DNA of 29,827 nt from a virus, in IMG/VR virus record IMGVR_UViG_3300023184_000391, positions 1 to 29,827 of that record, one strand, 5' to 3'. The translations under genes were made by a program, and so were the position numbers. The notes under the pieces were generated by a model. That model had not been told where the DNA came from. It saw only the letters and a program-made list of their open reading frames with translations, and searched no databases. The stretch's first letter is position 1. Each line of letters opens with the position of its first letter. Shown here in pieces: positions 6,701 through 22,671 of this stretch.

Positions 6701-7165
6701 GAACTCAGCACTGAGTATCAAAATCTTAATGAATACAAAATGCTAAGTGATAACATTATTTTGAATTCTGTGGTGTTTAAACCATTGTTTGGACCCAAAG
6801 CAGCTAAAACATTACAAGCCACAATCAAAGTTATTCGTGCTCAAAATTCCACAGCCAGCACCAGTGAAATCAAAAGTGCTGTGTTAGCGGCCATGAATGA
6901 ATATTTCTCAATCGACAAGTGGAACTTTGGCGACACATTCTACTTTTCAGAACTGGCAGCATATCTGCACAGATATCTTGGAACCATAATCAGTTCAGTG
7001 GTGTTAGTACCATTGGACACACAAAAATACTTCGGTGACATGTACGAAGTAAGAGCAGAACCCAGTGAAATATTTGTCAACGGCGCTACCATTGACAATA
7101 TTGTTGTGATTGATGCATTGACCAGTACCAACTTGCGTACTGCACCTGGTAGCGGAGTAATTTAA
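3719..7165 (+). CDS. 6: Baseplate wedge subunit gp6, enlarged
   Basis: This is a gp6-like wedge protein. In T4, gp6 dimers join the wedges into the inner baseplate ring and contact gp25 and gp53. The N-terminus has the family signature: FGVEDWKQIYQTYREADFQS, then FTDYLRLYYPETFNDYIES, then IAFMGQALAFRTDLNTRENY and a TAERRDSVTRLANLVSYTAKR helix. The C-terminus (about 1000-1130) has the NVILNSVVFKPLFG-like and LAAYLHRYLGTIISSVVLVP segments. At 1148 residues it is much longer than T4 gp6 (about 660). The extra length is beta-rich material in the middle (about 480-950), including an acidic NDNDGVPDNPDFFNE stretch. The start follows AAGG at 3705-3708. The stop shares one base with the next start (TAATG). 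Confidence 0.88.
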   Translation: MAKTTRQTAIFGVEDWKQIYQTYREADFQSYDFETLRKSFTDYLRLYYPETFNDYIESSEYIALLDVIAFMGQALAFRTDLNTRENYLDTAERRDSVTRLANLVSYTAKRNTAAQGLLKAFSVTTTENVVDYNGVNLANVTVNWADPTNFDWLEQWNAIINSSLVSSQKIGRPSNRQTILGVDTSEYGINLVPGFLPVIPYTATVDGVNMPFEATTSTTAGRDYIYEPSPKPNTTFNVLYRNDQLGYQSANNGFFFFFKQGTLQNQDFNLAERIANRTVNINIEGVNNEDRWLFQLDNVGSISREWVYTPNIYSAAAEQTAMLRPIFSTTSRTNDQITMVFGDGVFSEIPVGIFRAYVRASNGLQYIINPSEMQNVVLPISYIDRNGNLQTLTFTCGITQPVSNAQSRESIDAIKQRAPARYYTQNRMVNGEDYNLFPFTLYNSIIKSKAVNRASIGTSRYLDLVDNTGKYSSTNTFSSDGAMWENNILPTSLFAWNNRNEIADLITNQIQPAIIGATFKQFYYANFPRITVNTGATALSSWHQSTTLANETTGYFQNALGVPVMVGTDSSTAFQYVVQKSLIKFVPPVINGQPYYFDANNRLVQGLPTRPEDHLEIWASPIAIVGNGSNNGIGNLTNGQGPIALNNFVPTGAIVDSIIPVFLTDLTPAVREQMTQQILLYRNFGLGYDNDGSITGTAGTWYVITSTNLDDNATWSQTYAGNTSGQNLDASWMVQFVAVDNSYTITYRGLAYYFGSVLQTRFFFYGNQKIYDSRTGTTIRDFVNVLAVNTKPDSSSPLPGDIFTTIIGQPVESDGYVDDFQVLISYRDNDNDGVPDNPDFFNEIVAPTVNPNLKLVFLQRTVDFDNLQRYLLVEPGVVNSDYSTYDTIELVKFQYSPGQVFYAYSDELFYVLTVNTAGVRVITQTTEGEWIARTGRQALYFQYRHNSPLTNRIDPGTTNIIDLYVVTQSYYTAYQNWITDTTGTVAEPNMPTIDELSTEYQNLNEYKMLSDNIILNSVVFKPLFGPKAAKTLQATIKVIRAQNSTASTSEIKSAVLAAMNEYFSIDKWNFGDTFYFSELAAYLHRYLGTIISSVVLVPLDTQKYFGDMYEVRAEPSEIFVNGATIDNIVVIDALTSTNLRTAPGSGVI
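7154..7157 (+). promoter_or_regulatory. Ribosome binding site of the giant gene
   Basis: GGAG lies 7 nt before the ATG at 7165, inside the end of gp6. It supports the ATG that overlaps the gp6 stop as the real start of the 5109-codon frame and suggests coupled translation. Confidence 0.65.
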
Positions 7166-10100
7166 TGGCACGAGTACGCAGCGTAGATTTTCTTCCTGAG
7201 ATTTTTCAGACAGACGCCAACAAGCAATTTTTAGCAGCTACTTTGGATCAGTTGATTCAAGAGCCAAAGTTTAAAAAGACTCAAGGTTATATTGGTCGCA
7301 CAGTTGGGCCAGGTGTAAATCCCAACGACAAATATGTGATTGAACCTGATAAGACTCGTGCTGACTATCAGCTTGAACCGGGTGTGATCAGTATTGATCC
7401 CACTGACAACAGCAAAATAGTTGATGCTATTACGTATCCAGGCATTACTGATTCGTTAGTGTACCAAGGCAGTCCATCGACACAACCCAGTCGACTGTAT
7501 ACCAGTGATTACTACAGTCTTGATCCGTTTATTGACTTTGATACATTTGTAAACTTCAGCCAGTACTACTGGGTGCCAAATGGTCCTGATGTGGTCACTG
7601 TGCAATCGCCAGGAGTAGCACTAAGTCAAAACTTTGTGGTTGACCGCGCCAATGGAGTGTATACATTTTCTGGCGTGACTGGAAACAATCCCACAATAAA
7701 TTTAGTGCGTGGCGGTAACTACACATTCCAAGTATCACAAAATGCCAAAGAAACTGTCAACTACAAAGTAACACGAACCAATGTTACCAGTTACAACATT
7801 GACAATGAACCCAATGCTGCACTTACTTTGATTCGTGGTAATACCTATACATTCAATCTGTTTGTACAAGGTGATTTTCCATTCTGGATTAAGACAGCAC
7901 CTACTACCGGCACAGGTGATCAATACAACTCGGGCGTCACACGTAATGGATCAACAGTTGGTACTGTGACTTTTACTGTGCCACAAGATGCTCCTAACAC
8001 ACTGTATTACTCTTGTCAAAATCAAAGCCTCATGCAAGGCACCATCACAATCATTGATGCACAGCCAGGCGACGGTCCAGGATTTTGGATTCAAACCAAT
8101 CCAGGCATTAATGGTGTAAATCCTATCACTCCAAATGTGAGTTCTAGATCCATTTATGGTGTTACTGATAACGGTACTGATCTTGGCACCATTAACTTTA
8201 ATGTTCCACAAAAAACAGCTCAAGATTTCTTCTATGGTCTTGCTAGTATTGGCACAGTTGATCTTGTTACTGATTTGTTTTTTGAAAACATTAACGGTGC
8301 TAGATTAGATCAATTTATAGCTACCTATGGTGGCATTGATGGCATAACTGATCTTAACACACGAACATTGGTGTTTGCAAACAGTGCAGGAGATCCTTCA
8401 ACTGACTATTATAGCATATGGCGCATTAGTTATGTTGTTGTTGGAGCGTACACATACCTGTCTTTAGGCAGCATTCAAAACATAGCTAACTTAGAAAGAT
8501 GGACAATACGATACGGCACTGAATATTCCAGCACCCAATGGTATAAAAACCAAGCTGGGTACATTGTTGAAATGCCAGTGCTCACAGCCAAGTTAGACAC
8601 ATTGTACTACCAAGATGGTACTGATCCAGAAATCTTTGGCACAATCAGATTGATTGAACAAGATAACAGTAGCACAATATACATTGAAGATATTTTAGGC
8701 AAGAAAAACTATACCAGTCCAAATGGTGTTACATTTACCAATGGATTAAAAGTTCAGTTTTTAGGTAATGTATCCCCTGCCAGTTATGCAACGGGATCTG
8801 AGGCGTTTATTTGTACAAATACCGCGGCAGGTATTAACCTTATTACCACCGAGTCTACCGTGGGAATGGTAGCAGGCCAAGAAATTATTTTTACTGGCAC
8901 AACATTCGGTGGAGTCAGCACTGGTGTCACTTACTATGTGCAATCAGTGTTTACTAGCAGTCAATTCAAAGTAAGTGCGACTAAAAACGGTCCAGCAGTG
9001 ACATTAACGTCAGCAAATGGCACCATGACTGCCACTACCAATCAAAATCCACAATACTATGTAAGTGGAGTAGGTACAGCAATTGAACTATTACCTGTAA
9101 CAAACTACATTACGCCTGAACCATATGCTGCTGTAAATGATGTTGATTATCTTACAATCAACAGAGACAGTCCGGACTTAAATCCATGGAGTCGTAGTAA
9201 CCGTTGGTTCCATATTGATGTGCTCAATGCCACAGGTGCCTACAATAACACGCCTGTGGTAATAGACAATGATCGCAAAGGCAAGCGTCCAATTATACAA
9301 TTCCGTGGCGGCATTAGATTGTACAACATGGGCACAGATGCTAAACAGCTGGTAAATGTGATTGATTTTGTTGAAACTGACGCATTTAGCAATGTAGAAG
9401 GCAGCACTGGTTATGCAGTAAATGATTACACTTTTGTTAATGGCAGTCGTGTGATATTTGCAGCTGACGAAGATCCAAATGTACGAAGCAAAATTTATGT
9501 GGTAAATTTTGTTGTCCCAGACACTGTACCACCGCTGATTGCCCAACCAATCATAAACTTGGTTGAAGCACCAGACGGCGAAATATTTGTTGATCAAACT
9601 ACCACATGTATTAGTGGATCTCAAGTTGGTATTACTTATTGGTATGATGGAGTAAGTTGGTTAGAAGCACAACAAAAAACTTCAGTACAACAAGCACCAC
9701 TATTTGACATCTATGATGCTGATGGCATGAGCCTGGCCAATAGAGCTACCTATCCTAGTTCAACATTTGCAGGTACAAAGTTGTTTAGCTATGCAACTGG
9801 TTCAGGCGTGGCAGATCCAATACTACAACTCACACTAAAATATCTTTCATTGACAAACGTGGGAGATATTGTGTTTGACAACAACTTGTATGCAGACTCA
9901 TTTGTATATGTGCGTGACAATGTCAGTACCACAGCACCAATCAGTTCTGGATTTGTTTATGAATATGCGTCAAGAACTGTGTACGATAGATTGATTGGCT
10001 GGCAAACTGCCGCAGTGCCTACTTTGATGCGTCAACAGTTTAAGTTTATCTATGATACTGCACCACTTAGATTGGACGTAGCAGTAGAATCTGATACTGT

Positions 10101-13100
10101 TACCACTGTTCCTAGTGTGAAAGTGTTTGTGGGATCAATATTCCAAGATCCAGGAACTTATTCAGTAACCACTACTTCTAATACCACAACTATCACATTT
10201 TCAACTGTGCATGTGCCAGGAGATGTGATTGAAGTAGAAGTACTCAGCAATCAAATCAGTCAAGTTGCATTTTACCAAGTTCCGCTAAATCTCAATAACA
10301 ATCCATTGAATGCCAACAGCCCAAGTTTTACTCTAGGCACCTTGCGCACTCATTACAATAGTATCTGTCAAAATTTAACCACATTCTCAGGATCAATCAA
10401 CGGCGCAAACAACACTAGAGATCTTGGAAACATTATCCCTTACGGTCAAATAATTCTACAACAAAGTGCTCCACTGACACTGGCTGGATACTTTATGAGA
10501 TCTCAGCAGTACAATATTTTTGGTGCACTGGAATACAACAGCAGAGAATATCAAAAGTACAAAAATCAAATGCTGGAAGCAGTGACCAGACAGACCATTC
10601 AGTATGAAACTGCGTCACAAGTGCTTGATTTGGTAATAGCTGAAATCACACTGGGTCGTACCGCAAGCAATCCATTTTATTGGAGTGACATGCTGCCAGC
10701 CAGCGCGGTATTCACAACCACAACTTATACAGTGAGTTATATTACCAGTCAAGTGTTTGACACTGTGCAAGTATACAACTACACATCTGCCAACTATCTT
10801 GGCATGAATGTGTATGTGAATGATAGAATTTTAACTAGAGATTTAGAATATACTGTGGCCACAGATGGTCCACGTATTGATATTTTGATTGCCTTGGCCA
10901 TTGGCGACACAGTTACCATTCAAGAATACAGTGCCACATATGGCACCTATGTGCCTAACACACCTAGCAAAATGGGATTGTATCCTGCGTATCGTCCGGC
11001 TATTGTGCCGGTCAAAACTAGCGCAGGCGAACAATTGATCATACTAGGGCACGATGGCAGCCAAACTCCTATATTTGGCGACATACGTGATGAAGTGTTA
11101 CTAGAGTTTGAAACTAGAATTTACAATAACATCAAGTTGGCCGGCAATCCTGTTCCTCTTGATATTGTGGATGTGTTGCCTGGTCAATTTAGAAACACTG
11201 GCTATAGCTATGATGAAATTAACACTATATTAGAAACCAACTTTTTAACTTATGTTGGATGGAACAAATTAGACTACACCACACAAGAGTACAGTGCTGG
11301 CAACCCATTTACCTACAACTATAGTTCGTCAACCAACAGACTCAATGGCGATACTCTATTAGGCGCTTGGCGCGGCATTAACCGTTATTTCTACGACACC
11401 CAGCAACCAGAGCTCACACCATGGGAAATGATTGGATTTTCAGTTAAGCCAGACTGGTGGGAAATTACTTACGGCCCAGGACCATATACATCTGACAACA
11501 TGAACCTGTGGGATGATTTAGAACTTGGTCTTGTGAGAGATCCAGTTGGCGCATACACATTGCCAGCTTACGCAAGACCTGGATTGCTATCTGTACTACC
11601 AACTGATACAGCCGGTCAGTTGTTGGCTCCGCTTGAATCAGTAGTTGGCGGATACAATGCCCAAACATTCCAGAAAAGTTGGGCGCCAGGAGACGGAGGT
11701 CCAGTTGAAGCATCTTGGTGGAACTCTAGTGATTATCCATTTGCTGTGATGCGATTGTTGGCGCTGACTCGTCCAGCAAAATTCTTTGCATTGTTTGCTG
11801 ACAGAGACTTGTACAAATACAGCACAGAATTTGATCAGTATCTTTACAATGGTCGTTATAGATTAGATGCCAATGGTGTGCAAGTGTATGGTGATGGTAC
11901 CAGCAAAGCCAGTTATATCAACTGGATTGTGGATTACAATCGTATCACAGGTACCAACAGCACTGTGGCACTGGAAACAGATTTACAGAATTTAGACGTG
12001 CGTTTGTGCTATAGAATGGCTTCATTCTCAGACAAACAGTATTTGAAAATCTACACTGAAAAGTCTAGTCCCAAGTCGACCAATACTAGTTTGCAGATTC
12101 CTCCAGAGAGTTATCAACTGTTGGTGTATAAGAATCAACCATTTGACAGACTGATTTACAGTTCAGTTGTGATTCAAGTTGTAGATGGTGGTTATGCGGT
12201 GTTTGGTTACAGCACCGCAAGACCATTCTTCAACACATTTACCAGCATTCCAGTTGGTCAATTCCAGACATACAGTGTTGCTGGTAAGACCATTCAGGTA
12301 CCCGCCAATTACACAGATACTATCACTCAGATTCCTTATGGTTTTGTATTCACAACTGAATCAGCGGTGGCCAATTTCTTGTTGAGCTACGGAAAGTATT
12401 TAGAATCACAAGGTTTTGAGTTCAACAATCAAATTAATGGGTACTTGATGACTTGGTCACAAATGGTATATGAGTTCATATACTGGAGTCAACAAGGCTG
12501 GGGCGAAGGCAGTTTGATCAACTTGAATCCTTTAGCAACTGGACTGTCGGTATTTAAGGAACAAGCAGTTGTAGACACCATAACATCACAAACATCGGAA
12601 CATGTTATCCTGGATCAAAATCGCAGAGACTTTCCTGTTCGAGATCTCAATATTGTGCGAGTTGACAACAACTTTACTATTCAGCCTTTGAACAATCAAA
12701 GTCTAAGTTTTATTGACATGCGTTACACCAATTTTGAAAGCATGATTGTGTTTGACAACACAAGTTTGTTCGGAGACTTGATTTTTGAACCTATAACAGG
12801 TGCTAGACAAAGCAGACTGTATCTTTCTGGCACCACTACCACAGAATGGGATGGCAGTGTAAATGCACAGGGCTTTATCTTAAATCAAAACAACATACCA
12901 GCATGGACTGGATTAAAAACTTATGCCAAAGGTGAGATAGTAACGCACAAAGGTGCTTACTGGAGTGCGGCAACTATTGTGCAACCTAGCACCAAGTTCA
13001 ACTACAATGATTGGAATCAAAGCGATTACACTTTCATTGAACAAGGTTTGTTGGCCAACTTAGCAAACAAAGCTGACCAACTGAGCAACAGTTACGATAT

Positions 13101-16100
13101 TAATTCAGCTAACTTGATTACTGATAATGATTTGTTGAGTTATGGCTTGATAGGATTTAGACCTCGACAGTATATGGCTGCATTGAACCTCGATGACGTA
13201 AGTCAACTCAATGTTTACAGAGAGTTTCTTGGAACCAAAGGAACCAAAAACAGCATTGACTTGTTTGGACAAGCCAAATTCAATAAAGAAGTTGCTGACT
13301 ACAAAGTCTACGAAAACTGGGCCATACAACGTGGGGTATATGGTGCCAACGCCAATCGCAGCTTCTTTGATTTACGATTGAATCGTGCATTGTTATCAAG
13401 CAACCCCAGCTTGGTGCAAGTTGTGGTACCAAATGAATCAAGCACTGCTGATCAACAAATTTTCCTCAGTGATGTATGGAAGAGCAGTTTCCCATTGACT
13501 ACTCCTGCACTGCTGCCAACCACAACCACATTGCCAACAGATATTGCTTTGCCTAATGCAGGATATGTCAATATTGATGATGTTGATATAACAGTGTTTA
13601 ATTTGGACGATCCTGCAAGTCTTGATGCCAATATTAATTCTATCATAGTTGGAACCAGTATTTGGGTGGCCAAAGTAAACAACTATGATTGGAACATTTA
13701 CCGTGCAGAGGCTGTGCCAGGTACTATCCAACACGTTTGTGACAACCTTAATGGCACCAGCAGAGTTATATTCAGCGGACAGCATGGATTGACTACTGGT
13801 GATAGATTGATCATAAGATTTTTTGACACAGAAGTCAATGGTGTTTACACAATACTAAGCATTCCAAACATAACCACAGTGAATATTGCATTAGACCTTG
13901 TGGGCAATCGCACTGTGGTCGATGGCACAGGTATTGGCTTTACTTTGAAGACCATGCGGGTGGATCAAGCCAGCGATGTGTTGAATTTACCATATGCTCA
14001 ACAAATTTTGCCCGGAGCAAAAGTTTGGGTAGACGACAACGGGCAAGGCCTGTGGGAAGTATTACAAAAACAAAATCCGTTTACTGAACGAACAATATTA
14101 GCACCAGTGTTACTTGATGCCACAGAACAGTATGGTGCATCAGTGGCACAAGCCACAAATCGATCAGCATTATTTGTGGGTAGCCCACGTTATGGATTTG
14201 GGTCAGGTACTGCCAAAGGGGGCATCTATCTATATGTAAGAAGTTCAGGTGATCAGTATATACCAATTAGTCCTATCAATGGTCAAGACACTATTCTTAC
14301 ATTGAGCACCACAGGCCTGCGTGGATACGGCAATGCTGTAGATGCTGGTAACCAAACTTGGGCAGTAGGTGGAGCAAGTGCCAGCTTGGGCCCAGCGCCT
14401 GCAGGATCCCCTGCCAACAACGGATATGCTGTGGTGCTATGGCGTGATCCCACAGCTGGAGCAGCTAATAGTAGTCCTTGGTATCAATCACAGTTGTTGA
14501 CACTTCCAACTACCACAACTACCACAACACCAGGTGCTGGTGAATTTGGCTACAGTGTGGCAATGAGTCTGGACGAGCGTTGGTTGTATGTTGGTGCTCC
14601 TGGATTGAATAAAGTTTATGCATACGGTCAAGTGCAATGGCAAGATCAAGTTTTACAATACAAAGCCAATGGTACCAGCAATACTGCTGACATCAGTAGT
14701 ACTATACAAATAAACAATGCAAATCAAATTGTTGTTCTTAAAAACAATGCAGTATTAACACTTTCATCTGATTATACAGTAAACCCTGGATTTACCACAG
14801 TGACATTTACGGCAACTCCAGCAGCTGGTGATGTTATTACAATTTCAAGAAAATACGTCAAAGCATTTACTGCAAGTGGTGCCACATATTCATTGTCGCC
14901 ATGGTTGTTTACAGCCACAGCAAATAACATTTACTCATTCTCAGTCACTGTTGATAATGTATTGCAACGTCCCAATATTGATTACACTTATTCTGGTACT
15001 ACACTAACATTCTATAATGTTCCTAGTGGTGGTTCGTCTATTATTGTAACATCACAGTTTTATTATGAACTTGCCGGTACTATTACGCCAACTGTTGCAG
15101 TGGCCGCTGGTGCAAGATTTGGCAGCAGCGTTCAATGTAGCACAGATGGCCGCCAAGTTATCATTGGATGTTCGAGTGCTACCGTAAACGGCTTGCTTGA
15201 AGCAGGTTCTGTGTATGTGTTTGATAGAAACGTACAAAAATTTATTCGTCAAGATGACAGTTCTAACACCTATACTGTGTTGGGAACTGTAACTGCTCCA
15301 GTCAGTATGCTGGTTAACAATGTGTTCTTGACCAATCAAACTGACAGCATTATTGGTGCTGATAACACGTTCTCAGTGTCAGGCAACAACATCACCATAA
15401 ACAAAGATTTATTTGTGGGCGATGTGATTGAGATTGAAATCAATCAGTTTGTGCAACAGCAGTTGATCAACGAAAACACCATAGCAGAGTATACCAACTA
15501 CGGTCAAAGTTTAGACTTGTGTCCATACAACTGTAGTTTGTATGTGGGTGCGCCGCAAGATTCCAGCATAGTCTGGAAAAGTGGTGTGGTTGAACGCAGT
15601 GTGAACCAAGCTAGAAGTTATGGCACAATCACAGCCACAGTGGCTAACCCCAGCCTAACTGCTGGACAAACATTGAGAGTTAACAACGTTGATATTGCTG
15701 TTCCAGCCAGCCCAAATAATAATGTGGCAGGCCTTGCTGCTGCCATCAATGGTGGCGAAGCAGGGACCAATTCAGGTGCTCCTAATGCTACAGCGGTAGT
15801 TTCTGCCACTGGTTACTTGACTATTTTTGTAACCAATACAGATGCTGCACCAGAAGGCAACAAACTGCAAGTGGCACCAGGTTCCGTTGGCACAGTATTT
15901 TCTGCACTTGGCTTCAATACATTTGTTTACACACAGACTATTGCCAGCCCACGCCCACTAGAGTTTGCTCAGTTTGGTTACTCAGTAGCAGTAAACGACA
16001 CTGCACTGAATCTTGTTGTTGGTTCGCCTAGAGGCAGCTTGTATCTGCCCATGGTATTTGATTACAACACCACAACAGAAAAAGCAGGCACTACGTTTGA

Positions 16101-19100
16101 TGGCAACTCTACCACGTTCTTCAGCCCGGTAATACAGAGTGGTGTGGTATACACCTATGATTATTTGCCTAGCAACAGTCTCAGCGTGGCCAACCCAGGT
16201 AAATTTATATTTGGGCAACAAGTTGAAACTAATGCAGTATCATACTTAGATCAATTTGGTTACGCAGTAAGTTACAACTCTGGAGTGCTGGTCGCTACTG
16301 CTCCTGGTGAAGACTTTGAAGATAGCACATACAGTGAGTACGGTGCTGCCTATGTGTTTGAAAATCCCACAAGACGTTTGGCTTGGGAACCAATTGCTAT
16401 TCAACAGCCAGTGGTAGATATCAAACTGTTGACCAGTGTATACATGTATGACAGAATCTCTTCTGCTAAGAGTCAGTTCTTTGATTTCTTTGATCCACTA
16501 CAAGGAAAAGTGTTGGGAGCTGCTCAAGAAAACATTGACTACATTAGTGCTGTTGATCCTGCCTCATACAATGTTGGCCCAGTAAACAATCGTGGTGACA
16601 CCTGGAACATCGCACACATTGGTGAAGTTTGGTGGGACATCAGCACAGTGAGATTTATTGACCCTAACCAAGACAATCCGACCTACGCCAGCCGAGAATG
16701 GGGTCAAGTATTTCCAGGCAGCCGAGTTGATGTTTATCAGTGGATTACCAGCTCGGTACCACCAGCAAACTATGTTGGAGTTGGCACACCATACAGCACC
16801 ACCAGTTATGTGGTAAGCACTCGATTGAACCAGTCTGGAACTTTTGTAACTGAATACTATTTTTGGGTACGTGGTATAACCGAAACTGCATCACAGTTGG
16901 GCAAAACACTCAGTGTGGCCACAGTTGCTTCGTATATTCAAGAACCCAAAGCCAGTGGCATCAGTTATATTGCGCCAATCAACTCTAGTACTATTGCAAT
17001 CTACAATGCACTTGAATATATTGTGGCATTTGATACAATTCTCAGCATTGAGTTTGATCAATCGCTTACAGATGCCAATGTACACACCGAATACGAGTTA
17101 ATTGCACAAGGACAAGCAGATGCTTTCTTAAGTGATAATCTATATCGCAAACTACAAGATAGTTTCTGCGGGGTAGATACATTTGGTAACAAAGTACCTG
17201 ATCCAAATCTAAACTATGCTCAACGGTATGGCGTACAGTTCCGTCCACGTCAGAGCATGTTTGTGGATCGTTTCCTTGCATTGAAAAATTATATAACACG
17301 TGCCAATGATGTGTTTGCATTATATCCTATAACAGAAAGCAGAAGTTTTGCACTATTAAACAGCGCAGAATCTGAACCAACATCAGTTGTATTGGTTAAT
17401 GCTGGTGAGTTTTCTATAGGCCAAACATATACAATCAACACAGTTGGCTCAACTAACTTTACTTTAATTGGTGCATCAAGTAACACAGTTGGTGTTACAT
17501 TTGTTGCTACAGGTGTAGGTAGCGGTACTGGTATAGCATCTTATACAAACTGGAATCTGCGTGTGGCTAACTTGGAAATTTTAGGATTTCAAAATATCTA
17601 TGCTGTACCGTTAGGTTACAAATACCTTGTGGCCACTAACAGTTTGAATCGTGGATTATGGACTATTAACGAAGTACAAGCTACAAACGATCCAGCAGTA
17701 AGAGAAATAGTGTTGAGTCGTGTGCAAAATTACAACACACGTCAATACTGGAGTTATGTAAACTGGTATCAGCCAGGATACAATTCTAGCTCAACCATTG
17801 TGACAGAAGTACCAAACTATGCCGCATTGAGTACCTTGACAGTGGCCATCGGTTCTAGCGTTAAAGTAACTGCTAATGCACAAGGTAAATTTGAAATTTA
17901 TCTACGCACTGATACAGGCTGGGACCGTGTGGGCCTTGAAGATGGTACTATTGAGATCTCTGCTCAAATATATGATTATGCACTAGGCAGATTTGGATTT
18001 GACGTTGAAGTGTTTGATGCACAGTATTATGACCAAGAGCCAGTTATTGAAACTCGCAAGATTATTCAAGCTATCAATGAAGAATTGTTTATTGATGAAC
18101 TAAAGATTGAAAGAAATAAGTCTCTTACTTTGATGTTCAACTTTATTCTTAGTGAATTGTTAGCACCAGAGTGGTTGATTAAAACCAGTTTGATTGATGT
18201 ACAACACAAAGTTAGAGACTTGGTGCCGTATCAAAATTACATTCGTGACAATCAAGATTTTGTGAGTGATTACATTCAAGAAGTCAAACCTTATCATGTA
18301 CAAATACGTGAATTCAATCTAACGTATGATGGCGCTGACAATTATCAAGGTAGCTTGACTGACTTTGATGTGCCGGCTTATTACGACACTGATCTAACTT
18401 TGCCACAGTTTGTAAGCCCAATTTTATTGCCTTACCAACATGCTACTGCTCAGGCGTTTAATACACTGAGTGACACTCCACCTAATAGCACTCTTTGGCC
18501 AACATGGCCATACAGCCAGTGGTTTGATAACTATTTGCTGCATGTAGATGCAATCACTGTGACCAATCAAGGCACAGGGTACACCATAGCACCCACAGTG
18601 CTTATTGTGCCTGCTGAAGGAGACACCGGCTCTGGAGCAGAAGCTGTGGCAGTTCTCAACTCATTGGGGAATATTGTATCCATAACATTGATAAATGGTG
18701 GATCAGGTTACCGTGTAACCCCAAGCATAGTATTTGATGGCGGCAATGGCACCGGTGCAGCAGCCTATCCTCAAATGGCCAATGGACTTGTGCGCAGTTT
18801 CCGCACAGTGCTCAAATATGACCGTTATCAATATCAAACATCTGTGTTAACCTGGAGTGCAGATGGCACATATGAAAATGGCACCCTTGTGCGTTATGAC
18901 AATCGTGTGTGGCAAGCCAACAGCGCCGACGGCAGCAGTGCTGTAGTTGGCCCAGATTTTAATCTTGAAGATTGGACGTTGGTAGATGCAGCCACACTAA
19001 GTGGCGTTAACCGTACCATGGGCTATTATATTCCAGGTGTAAACGAACTCGGATTAGATTTAAACTTATTGGTTGATGGCACTAGCTATCCAGGTGTGCA

Positions 19101-22100
19101 AGTTTGGGGTGATTATTTCTTAGGTAGTGCGCCAGTAAGTCCTACCTTAATATGTACTGCTACCAACGCCACTACTAATGAAATTACATGTGTTCAAACA
19201 GTAAGACTATCACTTAATGATTCTATTAGATTTTACGGAACTGTGTTTGGAGGCATTGTAGCAGGTACGGTTTATTATATCAATAGTATTGTTGATGCCA
19301 CACATTTTACAGTGTCATTAGCACCTACAGGACTCACAGTTAGTTTGACCACTGCTACCGGTACCATGATTGCAGATGTACCAGAACCTGTAGACGCAAT
19401 CTATGCCAGCAGCTTTACTGATCTATATCTTGGATTACGCCCAACTGATATCAATGTGGATGGTGGTGAATTCATCGGACCGTACGAAGGCCATGCTCCA
19501 GAAGAGTTGATAAACGGAGCCGAATACGATACATTAGATTTTCGTGTTTACACACGCCCAGGTGCAGACTGGACCGGACGTGGTCATGGATTTGCTATAG
19601 GTACATACAATTATTTGTATGATAATAATGCCTTGTATTGGGGTGATTTGGTACAAAATCCTGTAAGCATTGAAGTATCTAATGAAAATACAAACAGTGA
19701 TCTCACACCAGATATAGACTATGTTGTGGATTGGGAAAAACAAACAATAACAGCAATCGCCGGCGGCGGTATCTCCACCGGCGACATAATTAGTATCACT
19801 GCTTATGAAATGGGCGGCGGCGATCAACTGTTCCGTGGCAACTATGGTGGGTCAGATATCAATAACTCTGTAGTGATCCCAGTAGATTCTAATGAAATTT
19901 ATGAACTGGTGTTATTTGTAAATGGTACAAATGTGTCAGGCGCAACTTGGGCACCGTATTCTGAAAGTATATCTTGGACTTACGAAAATTCTTATGCAGC
20001 GCAAACTGTTGTTAGCAATAACAATGTTTATTATCGAGCATTGCAACCAGTCCCAGTAGGAACTTTGCTAGATAATCCACTGTACTGGATAGAATTTGTC
20101 CCAGCTCTGCAATCCACAGTTACATTCCCATATCCAATGGCCAATGTAAAATATGCAACCACAACATCTTTGTTTGGATCGTTTGGTTATGTGTACGCCA
20201 ATGGAGTAAACGGTGTTGGTGCAACACTGACAAATTACAACACATTTGATGTTTACGCCACTTTAAGCATTGATAATACTACTCCGTCAGTGGGAGATCG
20301 TATACTTGTTAAAAATGAAACTGGTGTATATGTTAACAATACCACGCAAAGTGCCGCATTCAATGGTATCTACACTGTCACTCAAATTGGCAGCAATACA
20401 GTTCCTTGGATATTAACTAGAGCAACAGATTTTGATGCATCTTCGGATATTCCTAGTGCAATCACTTTGGTCACATCAGGATTTACTAATGCTGCAACAA
20501 GATGGGTGTGTACATCAAATCCTTCTATCTCTATTGGAACCACTGAGATTGATTGGACTCGATTCATTGGTAGCGAAGCACCATATGGCCCTGGAGACGG
20601 CATTTCTATCACTGCTATGGGTGTTGAAACTCCTCAATACAGTTGGAGCACAGCAGTAACACAGTATCATACCACCACTGAGGCTGATGTATTAACCAAC
20701 AGTATCAATCTTGACAACAGCATGCAAGGCACCAATGTGGCCAACTTGGTAGTCACAGTGAACGGCAAGCGTTTGCAACCACCAGAGGGTATTGAATGGA
20801 CAGGTGACGGCACCAGCAGTAGTTTTGGTTTGCCACAACGCGGCGGCTATCCGCAGTCTGCTATCAACGCCAATACTGATATCCTAGTTTGGGTTAATAA
20901 TGTTCTGCAGGTACAAAACTTTGGTGCCACTGTGGGTGATTATTATGTGACCAATTACAATGGCAGCAACACTCCTGGACGTCAGGTAGTGTTCTTTACA
21001 CCACCAACTGATGGCGCACAGATTTTAATATCAGTTAGTACCATTGCACAATACAGAATTGTGGTAGGATCTCCTAGCAGATTGTTGATAACTCCGTTGC
21101 TGAATGTAGGTGACCAAATTGCAATCACCAGCTGGAATGATACCGCACAACAAGACCCACTGACATTGGTATTTGTTGGACCAGTGGTCACAGGCATTAC
21201 AGTGATTGAACCATATGACAGTACTGGATACAGTTATCCAGATTTTGCAAATAATACATCGGGCAGTTACGACTACAGTTTAGGTGTGGCTATTCCAGAT
21301 AATAATTTTGATTTGGGTCGAGAAGGAATATTAGCCAACAGATTGTGGGTAACATTAGATGGCAATAGATTGTACCCAGGAGTTGACTATGCAGTTCAAG
21401 GACAATATTTAATATTGGGTAGTGGCATAATTGGTCAGGCGCAAGTATTGGCTGTAACTGAATTTACAGAAAGTATTGTTCCAGGAGCAATGGCATTTAG
21501 ATTGTTCCAAGACATGCGTGAAGTTCAAACCACATTCCGCATCACTAGATCAACTACAACAACAGTGGCTCAACCAGTGTCTGCAATTGCAGACATCATT
21601 TACGTTGATAATGCTGCATTGCTCAGTGAGCCTAATCTAAGTGCTGGTATTTTTGGAGTAATCACGATTGATGGTGAACGCATACTGTATCGTGAAAGAA
21701 ATCTTTCTACAAATTCAATCAGCGGGCTACAACGCGGCACTGCCGGAACAGGCGCAACTACTCATGCAGTAAATGCTGAAGTATACGATATGGGTATTGG
21801 AAATAGACTACCGCAAGAGTTTCAAAATTACATTGTGAGTGATACGTCTATAGGTAATGGAACTACCACAACATTCTATGCTGCCAGCTTAAATTCATCC
21901 AATGTTAGTATTACCATCAATGCTGGTAATTTTAAGATTGGTCGTACTTACACCATTGCTACTATAGGTACTACTAACTTTATCGCAATTGGTGCAACCA
22001 GTAATACCGTAGGTGTTGTATTTGTTGCTACAGGTACAGGTAGTGGCACCGGAACTGCCACTACAACTTATAGCGGCATTGAAGTTTATGTTGGCGGCAA

Positions 22101-22494
22101 ACTTGCTAGACTGGGATACAATGCTGGACAGTTTGTAGTTGGCCAAACTTATACTATTGCCAGTGTTGGCAACACCAACTGGCATGCGATTGGATTACCA
22201 AGCGATGTTTATCCATTACCGGGTGTGGTGTTTACAGCTACAGGCGTGGGATCAGGAACAGGTGTAGCAGGCGACAGTTTGGCCAGCAACTACTATCGAG
22301 TAACCAGTTATAATCCGTTGACCATACAGTTCCTTACTGCCAACGATTTATTACCTCCAGGTGACGGAGTAGAAGTTACTGTTCTGCAACGTCGTGGTGT
22401 AACTTGGTATGCTCCGGGCAATGGAACACCTAGCAATGGTGAGCCACTACAACTTACCGACACAAATGCCGCAAGGTTTTTACGTGGATTATAA
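7165..22494 (+). CDS. Giant modular virion protein (5109 residues)
   Basis: One unbroken frame encodes a 5109-residue protein right after gp6, the position of the T4 wedge genes 7 and 8. The N-terminus (DFLPEIFQTDANKQFLAATL, YYSLDPFIDFDTFVNFSQYY) and C-terminus (LTDTNAARFLRGL) look like the ends of very large virion proteins in aquatic T4-like phages. Modules in order: degenerate cupredoxin-like segment 157-298 with a half copy 304-355; FTG-FGG repeat 550-626; beta modules near 985 and 1213; a conserved Trp/Tyr-rich core about 1350-1900; CBM-like motif 1913-1957; seven FG-GAP-like blades 2320-3066; helical block 3626-3740; GxGY repeat 3795-3870; CBM-like motifs near 3887 and 4270; second FTG-FGG copy 3997-4072; beta modules 4250-4980; GxGSGTG repeats near 3413, 4920 and 4987. 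I see no signal peptide or membrane segment. Likely an outer baseplate or fibre-network component; exact role unknown. Confidence 0.8.
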   Translation: MARVRSVDFLPEIFQTDANKQFLAATLDQLIQEPKFKKTQGYIGRTVGPGVNPNDKYVIEPDKTRADYQLEPGVISIDPTDNSKIVDAITYPGITDSLVYQGSPSTQPSRLYTSDYYSLDPFIDFDTFVNFSQYYWVPNGPDVVTVQSPGVALSQNFVVDRANGVYTFSGVTGNNPTINLVRGGNYTFQVSQNAKETVNYKVTRTNVTSYNIDNEPNAALTLIRGNTYTFNLFVQGDFPFWIKTAPTTGTGDQYNSGVTRNGSTVGTVTFTVPQDAPNTLYYSCQNQSLMQGTITIIDAQPGDGPGFWIQTNPGINGVNPITPNVSSRSIYGVTDNGTDLGTINFNVPQKTAQDFFYGLASIGTVDLVTDLFFENINGARLDQFIATYGGIDGITDLNTRTLVFANSAGDPSTDYYSIWRISYVVVGAYTYLSLGSIQNIANLERWTIRYGTEYSSTQWYKNQAGYIVEMPVLTAKLDTLYYQDGTDPEIFGTIRLIEQDNSSTIYIEDILGKKNYTSPNGVTFTNGLKVQFLGNVSPASYATGSEAFICTNTAAGINLITTESTVGMVAGQEIIFTGTTFGGVSTGVTYYVQSVFTSSQFKVSATKNGPAVTLTSANGTMTATTNQNPQYYVSGVGTAIELLPVTNYITPEPYAAVNDVDYLTINRDSPDLNPWSRSNRWFHIDVLNATGAYNNTPVVIDNDRKGKRPIIQFRGGIRLYNMGTDAKQLVNVIDFVETDAFSNVEGSTGYAVNDYTFVNGSRVIFAADEDPNVRSKIYVVNFVVPDTVPPLIAQPIINLVEAPDGEIFVDQTTTCISGSQVGITYWYDGVSWLEAQQKTSVQQAPLFDIYDADGMSLANRATYPSSTFAGTKLFSYATGSGVADPILQLTLKYLSLTNVGDIVFDNNLYADSFVYVRDNVSTTAPISSGFVYEYASRTVYDRLIGWQTAAVPTLMRQQFKFIYDTAPLRLDVAVESDTVTTVPSVKVFVGSIFQDPGTYSVTTTSNTTTITFSTVHVPGDVIEVEVLSNQISQVAFYQVPLNLNNNPLNANSPSFTLGTLRTHYNSICQNLTTFSGSINGANNTRDLGNIIPYGQIILQQSAPLTLAGYFMRSQQYNIFGALEYNSREYQKYKNQMLEAVTRQTIQYETASQVLDLVIAEITLGRTASNPFYWSDMLPASAVFTTTTYTVSYITSQVFDTVQVYNYTSANYLGMNVYVNDRILTRDLEYTVATDGPRIDILIALAIGDTVTIQEYSATYGTYVPNTPSKMGLYPAYRPAIVPVKTSAGEQLIILGHDGSQTPIFGDIRDEVLLEFETRIYNNIKLAGNPVPLDIVDVLPGQFRNTGYSYDEINTILETNFLTYVGWNKLDYTTQEYSAGNPFTYNYSSSTNRLNGDTLLGAWRGINRYFYDTQQPELTPWEMIGFSVKPDWWEITYGPGPYTSDNMNLWDDLELGLVRDPVGAYTLPAYARPGLLSVLPTDTAGQLLAPLESVVGGYNAQTFQKSWAPGDGGPVEASWWNSSDYPFAVMRLLALTRPAKFFALFADRDLYKYSTEFDQYLYNGRYRLDANGVQVYGDGTSKASYINWIVDYNRITGTNSTVALETDLQNLDVRLCYRMASFSDKQYLKIYTEKSSPKSTNTSLQIPPESYQLLVYKNQPFDRLIYSSVVIQVVDGGYAVFGYSTARPFFNTFTSIPVGQFQTYSVAGKTIQVPANYTDTITQIPYGFVFTTESAVANFLLSYGKYLESQGFEFNNQINGYLMTWSQMVYEFIYWSQQGWGEGSLINLNPLATGLSVFKEQAVVDTITSQTSEHVILDQNRRDFPVRDLNIVRVDNNFTIQPLNNQSLSFIDMRYTNFESMIVFDNTSLFGDLIFEPITGARQSRLYLSGTTTTEWDGSVNAQGFILNQNNIPAWTGLKTYAKGEIVTHKGAYWSAATIVQPSTKFNYNDWNQSDYTFIEQGLLANLANKADQLSNSYDINSANLITDNDLLSYGLIGFRPRQYMAALNLDDVSQLNVYREFLGTKGTKNSIDLFGQAKFNKEVADYKVYENWAIQRGVYGANANRSFFDLRLNRALLSSNPSLVQVVVPNESSTADQQIFLSDVWKSSFPLTTPALLPTTTTLPTDIALPNAGYVNIDDVDITVFNLDDPASLDANINSIIVGTSIWVAKVNNYDWNIYRAEAVPGTIQHVCDNLNGTSRVIFSGQHGLTTGDRLIIRFFDTEVNGVYTILSIPNITTVNIALDLVGNRTVVDGTGIGFTLKTMRVDQASDVLNLPYAQQILPGAKVWVDDNGQGLWEVLQKQNPFTERTILAPVLLDATEQYGASVAQATNRSALFVGSPRYGFGSGTAKGGIYLYVRSSGDQYIPISPINGQDTILTLSTTGLRGYGNAVDAGNQTWAVGGASASLGPAPAGSPANNGYAVVLWRDPTAGAANSSPWYQSQLLTLPTTTTTTTPGAGEFGYSVAMSLDERWLYVGAPGLNKVYAYGQVQWQDQVLQYKANGTSNTADISSTIQINNANQIVVLKNNAVLTLSSDYTVNPGFTTVTFTATPAAGDVITISRKYVKAFTASGATYSLSPWLFTATANNIYSFSVTVDNVLQRPNIDYTYSGTTLTFYNVPSGGSSIIVTSQFYYELAGTITPTVAVAAGARFGSSVQCSTDGRQVIIGCSSATVNGLLEAGSVYVFDRNVQKFIRQDDSSNTYTVLGTVTAPVSMLVNNVFLTNQTDSIIGADNTFSVSGNNITINKDLFVGDVIEIEINQFVQQQLINENTIAEYTNYGQSLDLCPYNCSLYVGAPQDSSIVWKSGVVERSVNQARSYGTITATVANPSLTAGQTLRVNNVDIAVPASPNNNVAGLAAAINGGEAGTNSGAPNATAVVSATGYLTIFVTNTDAAPEGNKLQVAPGSVGTVFSALGFNTFVYTQTIASPRPLEFAQFGYSVAVNDTALNLVVGSPRGSLYLPMVFDYNTTTEKAGTTFDGNSTTFFSPVIQSGVVYTYDYLPSNSLSVANPGKFIFGQQVETNAVSYLDQFGYAVSYNSGVLVATAPGEDFEDSTYSEYGAAYVFENPTRRLAWEPIAIQQPVVDIKLLTSVYMYDRISSAKSQFFDFFDPLQGKVLGAAQENIDYISAVDPASYNVGPVNNRGDTWNIAHIGEVWWDISTVRFIDPNQDNPTYASREWGQVFPGSRVDVYQWITSSVPPANYVGVGTPYSTTSYVVSTRLNQSGTFVTEYYFWVRGITETASQLGKTLSVATVASYIQEPKASGISYIAPINSSTIAIYNALEYIVAFDTILSIEFDQSLTDANVHTEYELIAQGQADAFLSDNLYRKLQDSFCGVDTFGNKVPDPNLNYAQRYGVQFRPRQSMFVDRFLALKNYITRANDVFALYPITESRSFALLNSAESEPTSVVLVNAGEFSIGQTYTINTVGSTNFTLIGASSNTVGVTFVATGVGSGTGIASYTNWNLRVANLEILGFQNIYAVPLGYKYLVATNSLNRGLWTINEVQATNDPAVREIVLSRVQNYNTRQYWSYVNWYQPGYNSSSTIVTEVPNYAALSTLTVAIGSSVKVTANAQGKFEIYLRTDTGWDRVGLEDGTIEISAQIYDYALGRFGFDVEVFDAQYYDQEPVIETRKIIQAINEELFIDELKIERNKSLTLMFNFILSELLAPEWLIKTSLIDVQHKVRDLVPYQNYIRDNQDFVSDYIQEVKPYHVQIREFNLTYDGADNYQGSLTDFDVPAYYDTDLTLPQFVSPILLPYQHATAQAFNTLSDTPPNSTLWPTWPYSQWFDNYLLHVDAITVTNQGTGYTIAPTVLIVPAEGDTGSGAEAVAVLNSLGNIVSITLINGGSGYRVTPSIVFDGGNGTGAAAYPQMANGLVRSFRTVLKYDRYQYQTSVLTWSADGTYENGTLVRYDNRVWQANSADGSSAVVGPDFNLEDWTLVDAATLSGVNRTMGYYIPGVNELGLDLNLLVDGTSYPGVQVWGDYFLGSAPVSPTLICTATNATTNEITCVQTVRLSLNDSIRFYGTVFGGIVAGTVYYINSIVDATHFTVSLAPTGLTVSLTTATGTMIADVPEPVDAIYASSFTDLYLGLRPTDINVDGGEFIGPYEGHAPEELINGAEYDTLDFRVYTRPGADWTGRGHGFAIGTYNYLYDNNALYWGDLVQNPVSIEVSNENTNSDLTPDIDYVVDWEKQTITAIAGGGISTGDIISITAYEMGGGDQLFRGNYGGSDINNSVVIPVDSNEIYELVLFVNGTNVSGATWAPYSESISWTYENSYAAQTVVSNNNVYYRALQPVPVGTLLDNPLYWIEFVPALQSTVTFPYPMANVKYATTTSLFGSFGYVYANGVNGVGATLTNYNTFDVYATLSIDNTTPSVGDRILVKNETGVYVNNTTQSAAFNGIYTVTQIGSNTVPWILTRATDFDASSDIPSAITLVTSGFTNAATRWVCTSNPSISIGTTEIDWTRFIGSEAPYGPGDGISITAMGVETPQYSWSTAVTQYHTTTEADVLTNSINLDNSMQGTNVANLVVTVNGKRLQPPEGIEWTGDGTSSSFGLPQRGGYPQSAINANTDILVWVNNVLQVQNFGATVGDYYVTNYNGSNTPGRQVVFFTPPTDGAQILISVSTIAQYRIVVGSPSRLLITPLLNVGDQIAITSWNDTAQQDPLTLVFVGPVVTGITVIEPYDSTGYSYPDFANNTSGSYDYSLGVAIPDNNFDLGREGILANRLWVTLDGNRLYPGVDYAVQGQYLILGSGIIGQAQVLAVTEFTESIVPGAMAFRLFQDMREVQTTFRITRSTTTTVAQPVSAIADIIYVDNAALLSEPNLSAGIFGVITIDGERILYRERNLSTNSISGLQRGTAGTGATTHAVNAEVYDMGIGNRLPQEFQNYIVSDTSIGNGTTTTFYAASLNSSNVSITINAGNFKIGRTYTIATIGTTNFIAIGATSNTVGVVFVATGTGSGTGTATTTYSGIEVYVGGKLARLGYNAGQFVVGQTYTIASVGNTNWHAIGLPSDVYPLPGVVFTATGVGSGTGVAGDSLASNYYRVTSYNPLTIQFLTANDLLPPGDGVEVTVLQRRGVTWYAPGNGTPSNGEPLQLTDTNAARFLRGL
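7633..8240 (+). repeat. Degenerate cupredoxin-like segment in the giant protein, with partial second copy
   Basis: Residues 157-298 carry two LxRGxxYTFxV strands (near 178 and 220), FPFWIKTAP at 238-246, a TGTGDQYNSGVTRNG loop, then VTFTVPQDAPNTLYYSC and a Met at 290. This is the pattern of plastocyanin-like domains found in many aquatic proteins. The expected copper ligands are only half kept: Cys284 and Met290 are present, but the usual His before PFW is Phe238 and the usual His after the Cys is Gln287. A shortened second copy (304-355) repeats GFWIQT, GVTDNGTDLGTINFNVP. Copper binding is therefore unlikely and the fold is probably structural. Confidence 0.55.
8812..9042 (+). repeat. FTG-FGG module, copy 1 of 2 in the giant protein
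   Basis: Residues 550-626 share a spaced pattern with residues 3997-4072: Cys-Thr at the start, GTxFGG, then GxxYYxxS, FxVS, and a closing GTMxA. The two copies are about 10 kb apart in the same gene. They look like an old duplication or independent capture of one beta module. The function is unknown. Confidence 0.65.
12901..13035 (+). other. CBM5/12-like motif in the giant protein
   Basis: Residues 1913-1957 read AWTGLKTYAKGEIVTHKGAY followed by WSA and, 17 residues on, YNDW. The pattern W-x-YxxGxxVxxxGxxYxA...W is that of small chitin-binding-like modules (CBM5/12). Similar spacing recurs near residues 3887-3940 (TYENGTLVRYDNRVWQA) and 4270-4312 (SYAAQTVVSNNNVYYRA, YWIEF). Binding to a host surface glycan is an inference; the motif is short and can also be purely structural. 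Confidence 0.4.
14119..16362 (+). repeat. Seven FG-GAP-like propeller blades with inserted domains, inside the giant protein
   Basis: Seven units share the outline [QEF]-[FY]-G-x-[SA]-[VL] ... [LV]-[FYV]-[VI]-[GA]-[SA]-P ... G-x-[VI]-Y-x-[YF]. They begin near residues 2322 (QYGASVA), 2387 (GYGNAVD), 2460 (EFGYSVA), 2651 (RFGSSVQ), 2778 (NYGQSLD), 2936 (QFGYSVA) and 3030 (QFGYAVS). FG-GAP propellers such as integrin alpha have seven blades, so the count fits one closed propeller. The last five carry large insertions between blades 3-4 (about 2488-2640), 4-5 (2692-2772) and 5-6 (2814-2930). A run of seven Thr (2449-2455) leads into blade 3. The calcium-binding DxDxDG loops of integrins are not evident. 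The blades resemble the bacterial FG-GAP_2 type. Confidence 0.65.
15610..15945 (+). other. Domain inserted between propeller blades 5 and 6
   Basis: Residues about 2816-2927 read as an independent alpha/beta unit: TAGQTLRVNNVDIAVPASPN, then VAGLAAAINGG, ATAVVSATGYLTIFVTN and VFSALGF. The order (strand-turn-strand, AAIN helix, strand pair) resembles the flagellin-hook 'IN' type motif found in flagellar and adhesin proteins. This is a similarity in pattern only. The unit interrupts the FG-GAP-like repeat series. Confidence 0.35.
17401..17538 (+). repeat. GxGSGTG repeat, copy 1 of 3
   Basis: Residues 3413-3458 contain AGEFSIGQTYTINTVGSTNF, then LIGASSNTVGVTF and TGVGSGTG. The same unit recurs at 21922-22062 and 22123-22272. 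The unit looks like a short beta-hairpin pair closed by a glycine-rich turn. It is widespread in structural proteins of aquatic phages. Codons here favour T in the third position more than the flanking sequence does, which fits a separate origin. Confidence 0.75.
18547..18774 (+). repeat. GxGY tandem beta unit in the giant protein
   Basis: Residues 3795-3870 contain two related halves: VTNQGTGYTIAPTVLI with GSGAEAVAVL, and LINGGSGYRVTPSIVF with GTGAAA. The G-x-GY-x-x-x-P-x-[VI]-x-[FIV] pattern followed by G[ST]GA is a common repeat in phage tail and fibre proteins. The role is unknown and presumably architectural. Confidence 0.6.
19153..19380 (+). repeat. FTG-FGG module, copy 2 of 2 in the giant protein
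   Basis: Residues 3997-4072 match residues 550-626 at the same spaced positions (CT, GTVFGG, GTVYYINS, FTVS, LTTATGTMIA). The match is over the full unit and not just one motif, so a common origin is likely. Confidence 0.65.
21922..22062 (+). repeat. GxGSGTG repeat, copy 2 of 3
   Basis: Residues 4920-4966 contain AGNFKIGRTYTIATIGTTNF, then AIGATSNTVGVVF and TGTGSGTG. It is the closest of the two C-terminal copies to copy 1 at 17401, in both protein and DNA. It is separated from copy 3 by one short YVGGKL beta module. Confidence 0.75.
22123..22272 (+). repeat. GxGSGTG repeat, copy 3 of 3
   Basis: Residues 4987-5036 contain AGQFVVGQTYTIASVGNTNW, HAIGLPSD, PGVVF and TGVGSGTG. This copy is altered in the middle, where the usual SNTVGVVF becomes SDVYPLPGVVF, a short insertion. 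It lies close to the C-terminus of the giant protein. Confidence 0.75.
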
Positions 22495-22512: not shown

Positions 22513-22671
22513 ATGTCAACTACTATGCCAAAACAGCCAGTAACAGTAAATTCTGAGAAAAAACAACCTCAGCCCAAGCGTCCCAACGAGCAAGGATCAT
22601 TTTCCGTTGAAGCTCATGTGCGTATTTTTGACCCAAAAACAAAAGAAGTTTATATGGAGGGCAGAGCATGA
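22513..22671 (+). CDS. Small 52-residue protein sharing a motif with the next gene
   Basis: ATG at 22513 opens a 52-codon frame ending TGA at 22669-22671. The first half is basic and Pro/Gln/Lys-rich (MSTTMPKQPV, KKQPQPKRPNEQ), likely disordered. The second half reads SVEAHVRIFDPKTKEVYMEG. The final 4 bases overlap the next start (ATGA). It fills the gap after the giant gene exactly, and the strong GGAGG for the next gene lies inside its end. HVRIFDPKTKEV resembles FIKIHDPNTGEV near the start of the next protein (six identical positions of eleven or twelve), suggesting kinship. Its own ribosome binding site is weak (ACAAGG 22494-22499, 13 nt away). The function is unknown; a small virion or assembly protein is likely. 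Confidence 0.75.
   Translation: MSTTMPKQPVTVNSEKKQPQPKRPNEQGSFSVEAHVRIFDPKTKEVYMEGRA
22656..22660 (+). promoter_or_regulatory. Strong Shine-Dalgarno of the 207-residue virion protein
   Basis: GGAGG lies 7 nt before ATG 22668, inside the last codons of the preceding small gene. It is the strongest ribosome binding site in the structural block and fixes the start. Confidence 0.75.

Follow-up and report, generated by a model that had tools for sequence, protein, structure and literature searches.

The window analysed here, a 29,827-base virus contig from IMG/VR, carries a single gene (7165–22494, + strand) for a virion protein of 5,109 aa, which we consider probably to represent a baseplate-associated wedge scaffold of a jumbo phage bearing exchangeable and probably adhesive domains on one chain. 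The blocks, domains, and modules of this protein, as well as the putative ribosome-binding site of its gene, are given below with their + strand coordinates. Alignment with relatives points to a chain in which fairly constant blocks alternate with expandable slots, the content of the slots being specific to individual clades.

An earlier sequence-only reading had described an unbroken single gene of 5,109 residues, encoding one protein rather than a chance run of open codons, and our analysis bears out both statements. The frame extends from ATG to stop without internal stop codons, and an open run of 5,109 codons would arise by chance with a probability of about (61/64)^5109, or ~10^-106 (simple arithmetic with equal base frequencies). 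A putative ribosome-binding site, GGAG (7154–7157), can be seen in the sequence 7 nt ahead of the ATG, and the start (TAATG) overlaps the stop of the upstream gp6-like gene at 7165. The gene does occupy half of the window (51%), as was claimed, though the window itself is a fragment: contigs of its relatives reach up to 349–364 kb.

The relatives were collected by a viral-contig scan with residues 1019–1912, which revealed 563 of them (below, the “window’s clade”), and the best 80 of the 563 were used. In 43 of these 80 IMG/VR relatives, the longest frame is closed within the available DNA, and in 41 of the 43 it comprises 4,729–5,337 aa; since some contigs are near-identical, 41 should not be read as a count of independent assemblies. 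The two shorter proteins are those of L048 (2,373 aa) and L068 (2,917 aa), where the giant frame is interrupted by either a real break or an assembly error, both being possible. Comparison by the Nei–Gojobori count with four relatives having 88–89% protein identity to the window protein (L008, L009, L010, and L014) gave dN/dS of 0.065–0.069 for the whole gene and 0.037–0.126 for its five segments, although these values are only rough because the synonymous differences are high (~0.55 per site). The giant gene is under purifying selection. An assembly chimera or a missed stop might be suspected in a metagenomic contig, all the more with two of 43 relatives interrupted, but it is very unlikely, to the point of being negligible, because the other 41 closed frames are intact and dN/dS is ~0.07. 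The ends of the protein had also been described as conserved, which holds for residues 1–100 in the six isolate relatives (31% mean identity, 97% coverage), whereas the last nine residues are conserved in the clade (80%) and weakly so in the isolates (24%, 72% coverage).

Three overlapping pieces of the giant protein match PHROG 10938 (“virion structural protein”, 3,324 positions) with E values of 2.1e-149, 5.2e-127, and 1e-38, and by this likeness the window protein belongs to the PHROG 10938 family of giant virion proteins of jumbo phages. Directly upstream, there is a gp6-like baseplate wedge gene for 1,148 aa (3719–7165, + strand), matching phrog_10646 (E 8.2e-276), phrog_219 (E 7.6e-23), and the T4 gp6 family (hhalign 94%, E 1.4e-7). 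The upstream gene set comprises a hub/lysozyme-like gene, one gene without assignment, a gp25-like gene, and this gp6-like gene. The PHROG 10938 relatives are located right after a gp6-like gene in PA5oct (3,857 aa), Atu_ph07 (4,449 aa), CBB (3,340 aa), Phosso (4,555 aa), and Vibrio 2.275.O (3,771 aa), that is, in five of the six isolate records; the exception is Salicola SCTP-2, where the relative (3,807 aa) lies ~90 kb off the gp6-like match. In a rhizobiophage, a wedge protein of 1,198 aa is described as being followed by a structural protein of 4,455 aa (PMC11242549). The same place is occupied in three T4-like cyanophages by S-MbCM6_080 (7,022 aa), a protein of S-SSM4 (6,932 aa), and a protein of S-B43 (4,337 aa), the latter being annotated as “baseplate wedge initiator”. 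Since the relatives measure 3.3–4.6 kaa and the cyanophage giants 4.3–7.0 kaa, a length of 5,109 aa is not exceptional.

The sequence-only reading had assigned the protein to the virion and its gene to the place of T4 genes 7 and 8. The former is supported via the relatives: CBB_236 appears in the mass spectrometry table of CBB virion proteins, where the values 21 and 7.72 are given for it (PMC5259590), and the record of PA5oct gp355 bears the note ESI-MS/MS. The latter is supported by the succession of the gp6-like and the giant gene, which repeats the beginning of the T4 order 6-7-8.

A MAFFT alignment of 18 members, cut at residues 120, 660, 2080, 3085, and 3770 of the window protein, divides the chain into six parts. 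The constant blocks are N (aa 1–120; 7165–7524), core1 (aa 661–2080; 9145–13404), and core2 (aa 3086–3770; 16420–18474), which in the 18 members measure 119–145, 1,349–1,743, and 507–742 aa, respectively. Between them are slot A (aa 121–660; 7525–9144), having 26 aa in CBB, 540 in the window protein, and 26–610 across the members, and slot B (aa 2081–3085; 13405–16419), which varies from 222 aa in CBB through 1,005 in the window protein to 1,550 in Atu_ph07 (222–1,550 among the 18 members, with 222–224 aa in the five Rak2-like ones). The C-terminal part (aa 3771–5109; 18475–22491) is expandable as well, spanning 502–1,434 aa. An EVKPY-type motif occurs once per protein in all 18 members, being located at aa 3706 (core2) in the window protein. 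Such length and separable constant blocks would also be suitable for a polyprotein that is cut after translation into several baseplate and fibre proteins, which we regard as distinctly improbable.

Structure models of the core blocks were of middling confidence: the mean pLDDT was 66.7 for core1 (aa 1080–2150) and 59.4 for the second core-block model, in which the first copy of module A (see below) was mostly under 50. Searches of the PDB gave no match by sequence at E 1, either with core1 alone or with both profiles, and no match by fold at E 0.001 for either model. In BFVD, the core1 model had 21 matches at E 0.001 or better, the named ones being an Atu_ph07 structural protein, uncultured Caudovirales phage proteins, and one Myoviridae sp. 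protein.

The gene order 6-7, shared with T4, raises the question of whether the giant protein is a true, hugely expanded orthologue of T4 gp7, with one constant block corresponding to the gp7 core and the rest added. We consider this possible though somewhat doubtful. It is favoured by the same place after gp25-like and gp6-like genes, as well as by the three cyanophage giants, which the gp7 profile matches at the FYSTKG motif (E ~2e-6 to 7e-6, three sequences searched) and which may themselves be expanded gp7, since they have this motif in common with T4 gp7. The window protein has a resembling, not significant motif, FLGTKGT (aa 2021–2027; 13225–13245), the KG of which (aa 2025–2026) is invariant in 31 aligned window-family sequences; hhalign aligns this hand-picked region with the gp7 motif (P 0.0034, probability 9.6%), but we do not count this P value as evidence of gp7 membership because the region was chosen by eye beforehand. 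Against orthology, profiles of gp7 and gp8 built from five phages gave only noise in the window family while the gp6 control was positive. The gp7 motif profile reached at best -0.5 bits in the family versus up to 5.4 for shuffled decoys. T4 gp7 is also absent among the PDB matches listed for both structure models, which does not exclude gp7. Single T4 sequences from gp5 to wac gave only noise against the profiles of N, core1, core2, the C-terminal part, and the whole protein (13 rows, mostly near-duplicates, were left out of these profiles). The suggestion that the giant protein replaces several T4 baseplate and fibre proteins is unproven. In the PA5oct record, a T4-like gp10 is annotated further downstream.

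The “mosaic” character ascribed to the protein is correct in substance, since many modules and domains can be recognised along the chain. The most extended of them is a set of seven FG-GAP_2 repeats (aa 2318–3068; 14116–16368) predicted to form a seven-bladed beta-propeller with other domains between the blades. One repeat matches Pfam PF14312 (FG-GAP_2) with E 6e-10 and 39.6 bits versus a cut-off of 23; four of six tested stretches gave FG-GAP_2 matches (E 2.3e-5, 1e-4, 0.038, and 0.067) and the other two none. In the window’s clade, FG-GAP repeats were found in 43 of 44 proteins (seven repeats in 40, eight in one, and six in two), L048 having no match in a protein that is truncated ahead of the last blades. 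In four long relatives, FG-GAP_2 was confined to the giant frame in all six places, with three of the four records above the cut-off. A profile seeded from the blades of the window protein matched none of 13 outgroup members at E 0.05, and the same profile matched the S-MbCM6 giant three times at E <0.01. A seven-bladed FG-GAP propeller is the predicted content of slot B in the window’s clade.

Two further domains resemble CBM5/12 (chitin-binding type 3) folds. The first (aa 1906–1956; 12880–13032) combines a fold match to 8fqc_P1, from the baseplate with receptor binding complex of the Agrobacterium phage Milano (VIA Z 7.5, rmsd 0.9, 45 aligned), with a weak match to Pfam CBM_5_12 (E 0.005, 17.3 bits, under the cut-off of 26.2); the second (aa 3891–3941; 18835–18987) matches 8fqc_P1 with Z 6.2, rmsd 1.2, and 45 aligned. 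Such Z values under 8 are suggestive at most and may mean only a common arrangement. In slot A, aa 197–298 (7753–8058) match the C-terminal part of phrog_677, a family annotated with the T4 gp9 name (baseplate wedge tail fiber connector), with E 1.3e-17 over profile positions 305–410 of 412, and a second match has E 4.1e-20; because only the end of the family (~105 positions) is matched, we read this as a shared domain. Eight fibre-type VNG..DYTV domains were found at E <0.01, three of them between the FG-GAP blades. Finally, a 149-aa module (aa 4323–4471; 20131–20577) matches phrog_30390 (E 9.6e-18), phrog_8745 tail fiber (7.8e-15), and phrog_2647 head decoration (1.4e-9), and has no counterpart in 33 of the 41 clade relatives compared (the six isolates, L048, and L068 being left out of this comparison).

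Besides these domains, the family possesses small modules of ~50, 80, 65, and 51 aa, which we followed by HMM. The window protein has three copies of module A: copy 1 (aa 3413–3459; 17401–17541) shares its site with L009 only among 56 other proteins, copy 2 (aa 4920–4966; 21922–22062) occupies a site unique among the 57 family proteins, and copy 3 (aa 4987–5035; 22123–22269) was detected by HMM. Module B was detected likewise in two copies. The site of copy 1 (aa 548–626; 8806–9042) is empty in 11 of the 41 clade relatives; copy 2 (aa 3995–4073; 19147–19383) is predicted to be a small beta-barrel, and its match to the head-to-tail protein 9jlf_E of phage FCWL1 (Z 7.7, rmsd 2.1, 74 aligned) is no better than those to many cellular barrels, which reach Z 8.0. 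Module Y, of the GxGY..P type, is present by HMM at aa 3799–3869 (18559–18771) and has PHROG matches to baseplate, hub, head-closure, and fibre families; slot B of Atu_ph07 and Phosso contains 9 and 8 copies of it, respectively, all inside the slot. Module D was labelled CBM-like by eye.

Across the 57 family proteins, HMM detected module A 64 times (in 36 proteins, with 0–8 copies per protein), B 56 times (37 proteins), C 7 times (7 proteins), D 57 times (43 proteins), and Y 67 times (48 proteins). The profiles, which were built from clade copies, detected modules A–D in none of the 13 outgroup members. In the family alignment, whole modules differ between proteins of 86–89% overall identity. 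When placed on a core tree of 55 proteins (without L048 and L068), these differences amount to at least 45 presence/absence changes, of which module A accounts for 26 (in 11 site bins), modules B and D for 7 each, and module C for 5. This count is approximate, since the tree is a quick one in which some forks are open and the branches to the outgroup are long, and since we defined the site bins ourselves; it is not inflated by near-identical contigs. In L059, one C module is nested inside an A module.

As to the origin of the new copies, DNA identity of module A does not exceed 77% between different sites (mean 0.54; at most 71% within a genome) and reaches up to 100% at the same site; 11 near-duplicate loci and all pairs sharing fewer than 90 bases were excluded from this comparison. 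Fresh copying of module A between sites of the same gene is thus unsupported, and recent within-gene copying is an unlikely source. Clean transposition was considered too: at aa 3416 and 4921, module A replaces a short loop (~6 and ~17 residues, respectively, by eye), with no target duplication visible by eye, and we rejected this route.

Module A is spread beyond the giant family. A viral-contig scan with its typed consensus gave at least 599 stretches, at least 446 of them confirmed, and the best 80 matches were used, a choice that favours typical copies. Of the 83 ORFs with module A in these 80 loci (L183–L262), 22 match the giant family by BLAST over at least 150 aa and 61 lack such a match; the split is rough because shared modules also give BLAST matches. 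With the module masked, the 61 ORFs fell into 23 groups unjoined by BLAST (E 1e-5, 60 aa), the largest comprising 22 ORFs. Their PHROG matches, as given for 25 of 67 families, include 8 to central tail fibre J, 7 each to tail fibre 5616 and head closure Hc3, 4 each to tail sheath 11196 and the sheath stabiliser, 3 to adaptor Ad1, and 2 to the distal tail protein; the same protein can be counted in several families, and shared modules may account for some of the matches. In Pfam, the 61 ORFs include four T4-gp15 sheath stabilisers, one sheath C-terminal domain, and one SU10 adaptor, and the commonest family accounts for 6 of the 61.

The window copies of module A themselves gave only Pfam matches under the cut-offs, and tblastn of one copy against the isolates at E 0.01 gave none, although the low-complexity filter may hide matches. 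Within the records of nine relatives, module A is situated in the giant frame or in separate frames of 245–290 aa, and in two of the nine only in the latter. From these matches, we conclude that the 47-aa module A, which has no Pfam family, is common in particle proteins of environmental phages. We found no work on it in the literature, where its motif is not text-searchable, and we make no claim as to its publication status. One can imagine that modules A–D represent in-frame mobile units, i.e., a pool of 50–85-residue domains that enter the loops of almost any particle protein, perhaps by targeted recombination, with the giant protein in the gp7 place as their main platform. We hold this to be an improbable reading; were it true, the C module inside an A module in L059 would fit a dedicated or targeted insertion route.

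Returning to the wedge scaffold with exchangeable domains, which we prefer, we suppose the following arrangement. The giant protein would be made as one chain and would be built into the particle, the latter having been shown for its relatives. Blocks N, core1, and core2 may form a scaffold that takes the gp7 place, docked beside the wedge protein of the gp6-like gene, as suggested by the gene order and the constancy of the blocks; the location of the SCTP-2 giant gene far from its gp6-like match argues against such a wedge contact. The slots and the long tail would point mostly beta domains outward: the FG-GAP propeller, the CBM5/12-like folds, the VNG..DYTV domains, modules A, B, D, and Y, and, in the relatives, module C. 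This display is suggested by the fact that the modules are the parts that vary, while an adhesive function, most likely binding of cell-surface or other glycans, is suggested by the CBM5/12-like folds and the FG-GAP repeats; sugar binding as such is guessed from fold. The small modules are probably swapped at loops, with phage virion genes from a diverse pool as the partners in recombination, and this exchange would diversify the surface, strong purifying selection continuing to act on the scaffold. In the cyanophage S-PM2d, a baseplate wedge gene “gp8” is reported to have mutated during coexistence with the host (PMC9910659), which, by analogy with a protein of another family, is in keeping with a surface role of the proteins in the wedge place.

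The same domains may be explained in another way, with the giant protein being a peripheral fibre, whisker, or adhesin protein encoded in the baseplate operon without being a part of the wedge. Many of the recognisable domains are indeed of the fibre or decoration type, whisker-like structures are described along the CBB tail (PMC5259590), and SCTP-2 again fits, having its gene away from the gp6-like match. However, the adjacency to gp6-like genes in five of the six isolate records and the ~2.2 kaa of fairly constant scaffold are less expected for a peripheral protein, and we judge this explanation rather unlikely.

Downstream of the giant gene, a 52-aa ORF (22513–22671) fills the gap and overlaps the start of the next gene (ATGA); PA5oct and Atu_ph07 have a 41–42-aa gene directly behind the giant gene, similar to this ORF by size and place. 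The next long gene encodes 207 aa (22668–23291, + strand; phrog_11259), and a gene of similar size, alike in size and place only, occurs within a few ORFs after the giant gene in PA5oct, Atu_ph07, Phosso, SCTP-2, and Vibrio 2.275.O. It is followed by a 592-aa fibre-like protein (23324–25102) with many similar NITGGN-type repeats, the PHROG matches of which include a virion structural protein. Three ORFs of 299, 260, and 340 aa (26413–29274) look glycosyltransferase-like by eye and have no Pfam match at E 0.01. The partial ORF at 29274–29825 has no Pfam match at E 0.01 either; its CNLMCSYC stretch resembles that of a radical SAM enzyme. In Atu_ph07 and Phosso, the giant gene is followed, after a few kb, by annotated radical SAM genes.

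Compared with known systems, the giant gene itself is of a known kind and not unprecedented. Its closest counterparts are the PHROG 10938 giants of Rak2-like and related jumbo phages (CBB_236, PA5oct gp355, Atu_ph07 gp180, and Phosso 294), which are like the window protein in the core-block profile match, in length, and mostly in their place after gp25-like and gp6-like genes, although it has 5.1 kaa and the isolates 3.3–4.6; by a table entry, AP-J-162 ORF 58 is a PHROG 10938 giant as well. The window’s clade differs from the 13 outgroup members by the FG-GAP repeats in slot B and by modules A–D, none of which were found in the outgroup. The filling of the slots differs between clades: the Rak2-like phages have little in them, the Agrobacterium/Sinorhizobium phages carry arrays of module Y, and the window’s clade has FG-GAP repeats.

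The giants of T4-like cyanophages, compared through three proteins (L267, L268, and L269, one covered to residue 6,242 only), share with the window protein the place after gp25-like and gp6-like genes, the mosaic structure, module Y (9–17 copies), and the VNG..DYTV domains (1–4). They differ from it in that the N and core1 profiles gave nothing significant, the core2 matches fall at module Y, no modules A–D were found, and a gp7-like motif is present. The T4 gp7 wedge protein (1,032 aa) has the same gene place and no significant sequence likeness to the window protein.

Promiscuous Ig-like domains are a familiar feature of phage proteins. Domain mosaicism and shuffling in phage proteins generally were described by Smug et al. 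2023 (PMC10684548). The window family resembles this known mosaicism in that fragments are common to unrelated virion proteins and shuffling is ongoing; it differs in the very short cassettes, in the many sites within one gene, in the one nested case, and in differences between relatives with ~92% identical cores. Because such relatives differ by whole modules, they represent a natural series for studying the effects of modules on adsorption. A strangely long gene thereby turns into a testable picture of a scaffold beside the tail wedge with variable slots, and module A deserves a name and a structure. What is new, in comparison with the known giants and the known mosaicism, is that a fixed scaffold occurs together with slots whose content depends on the clade (in the window’s clade, the predicted seven-bladed propeller) and with very short domains that turn over fast and are in part nested.
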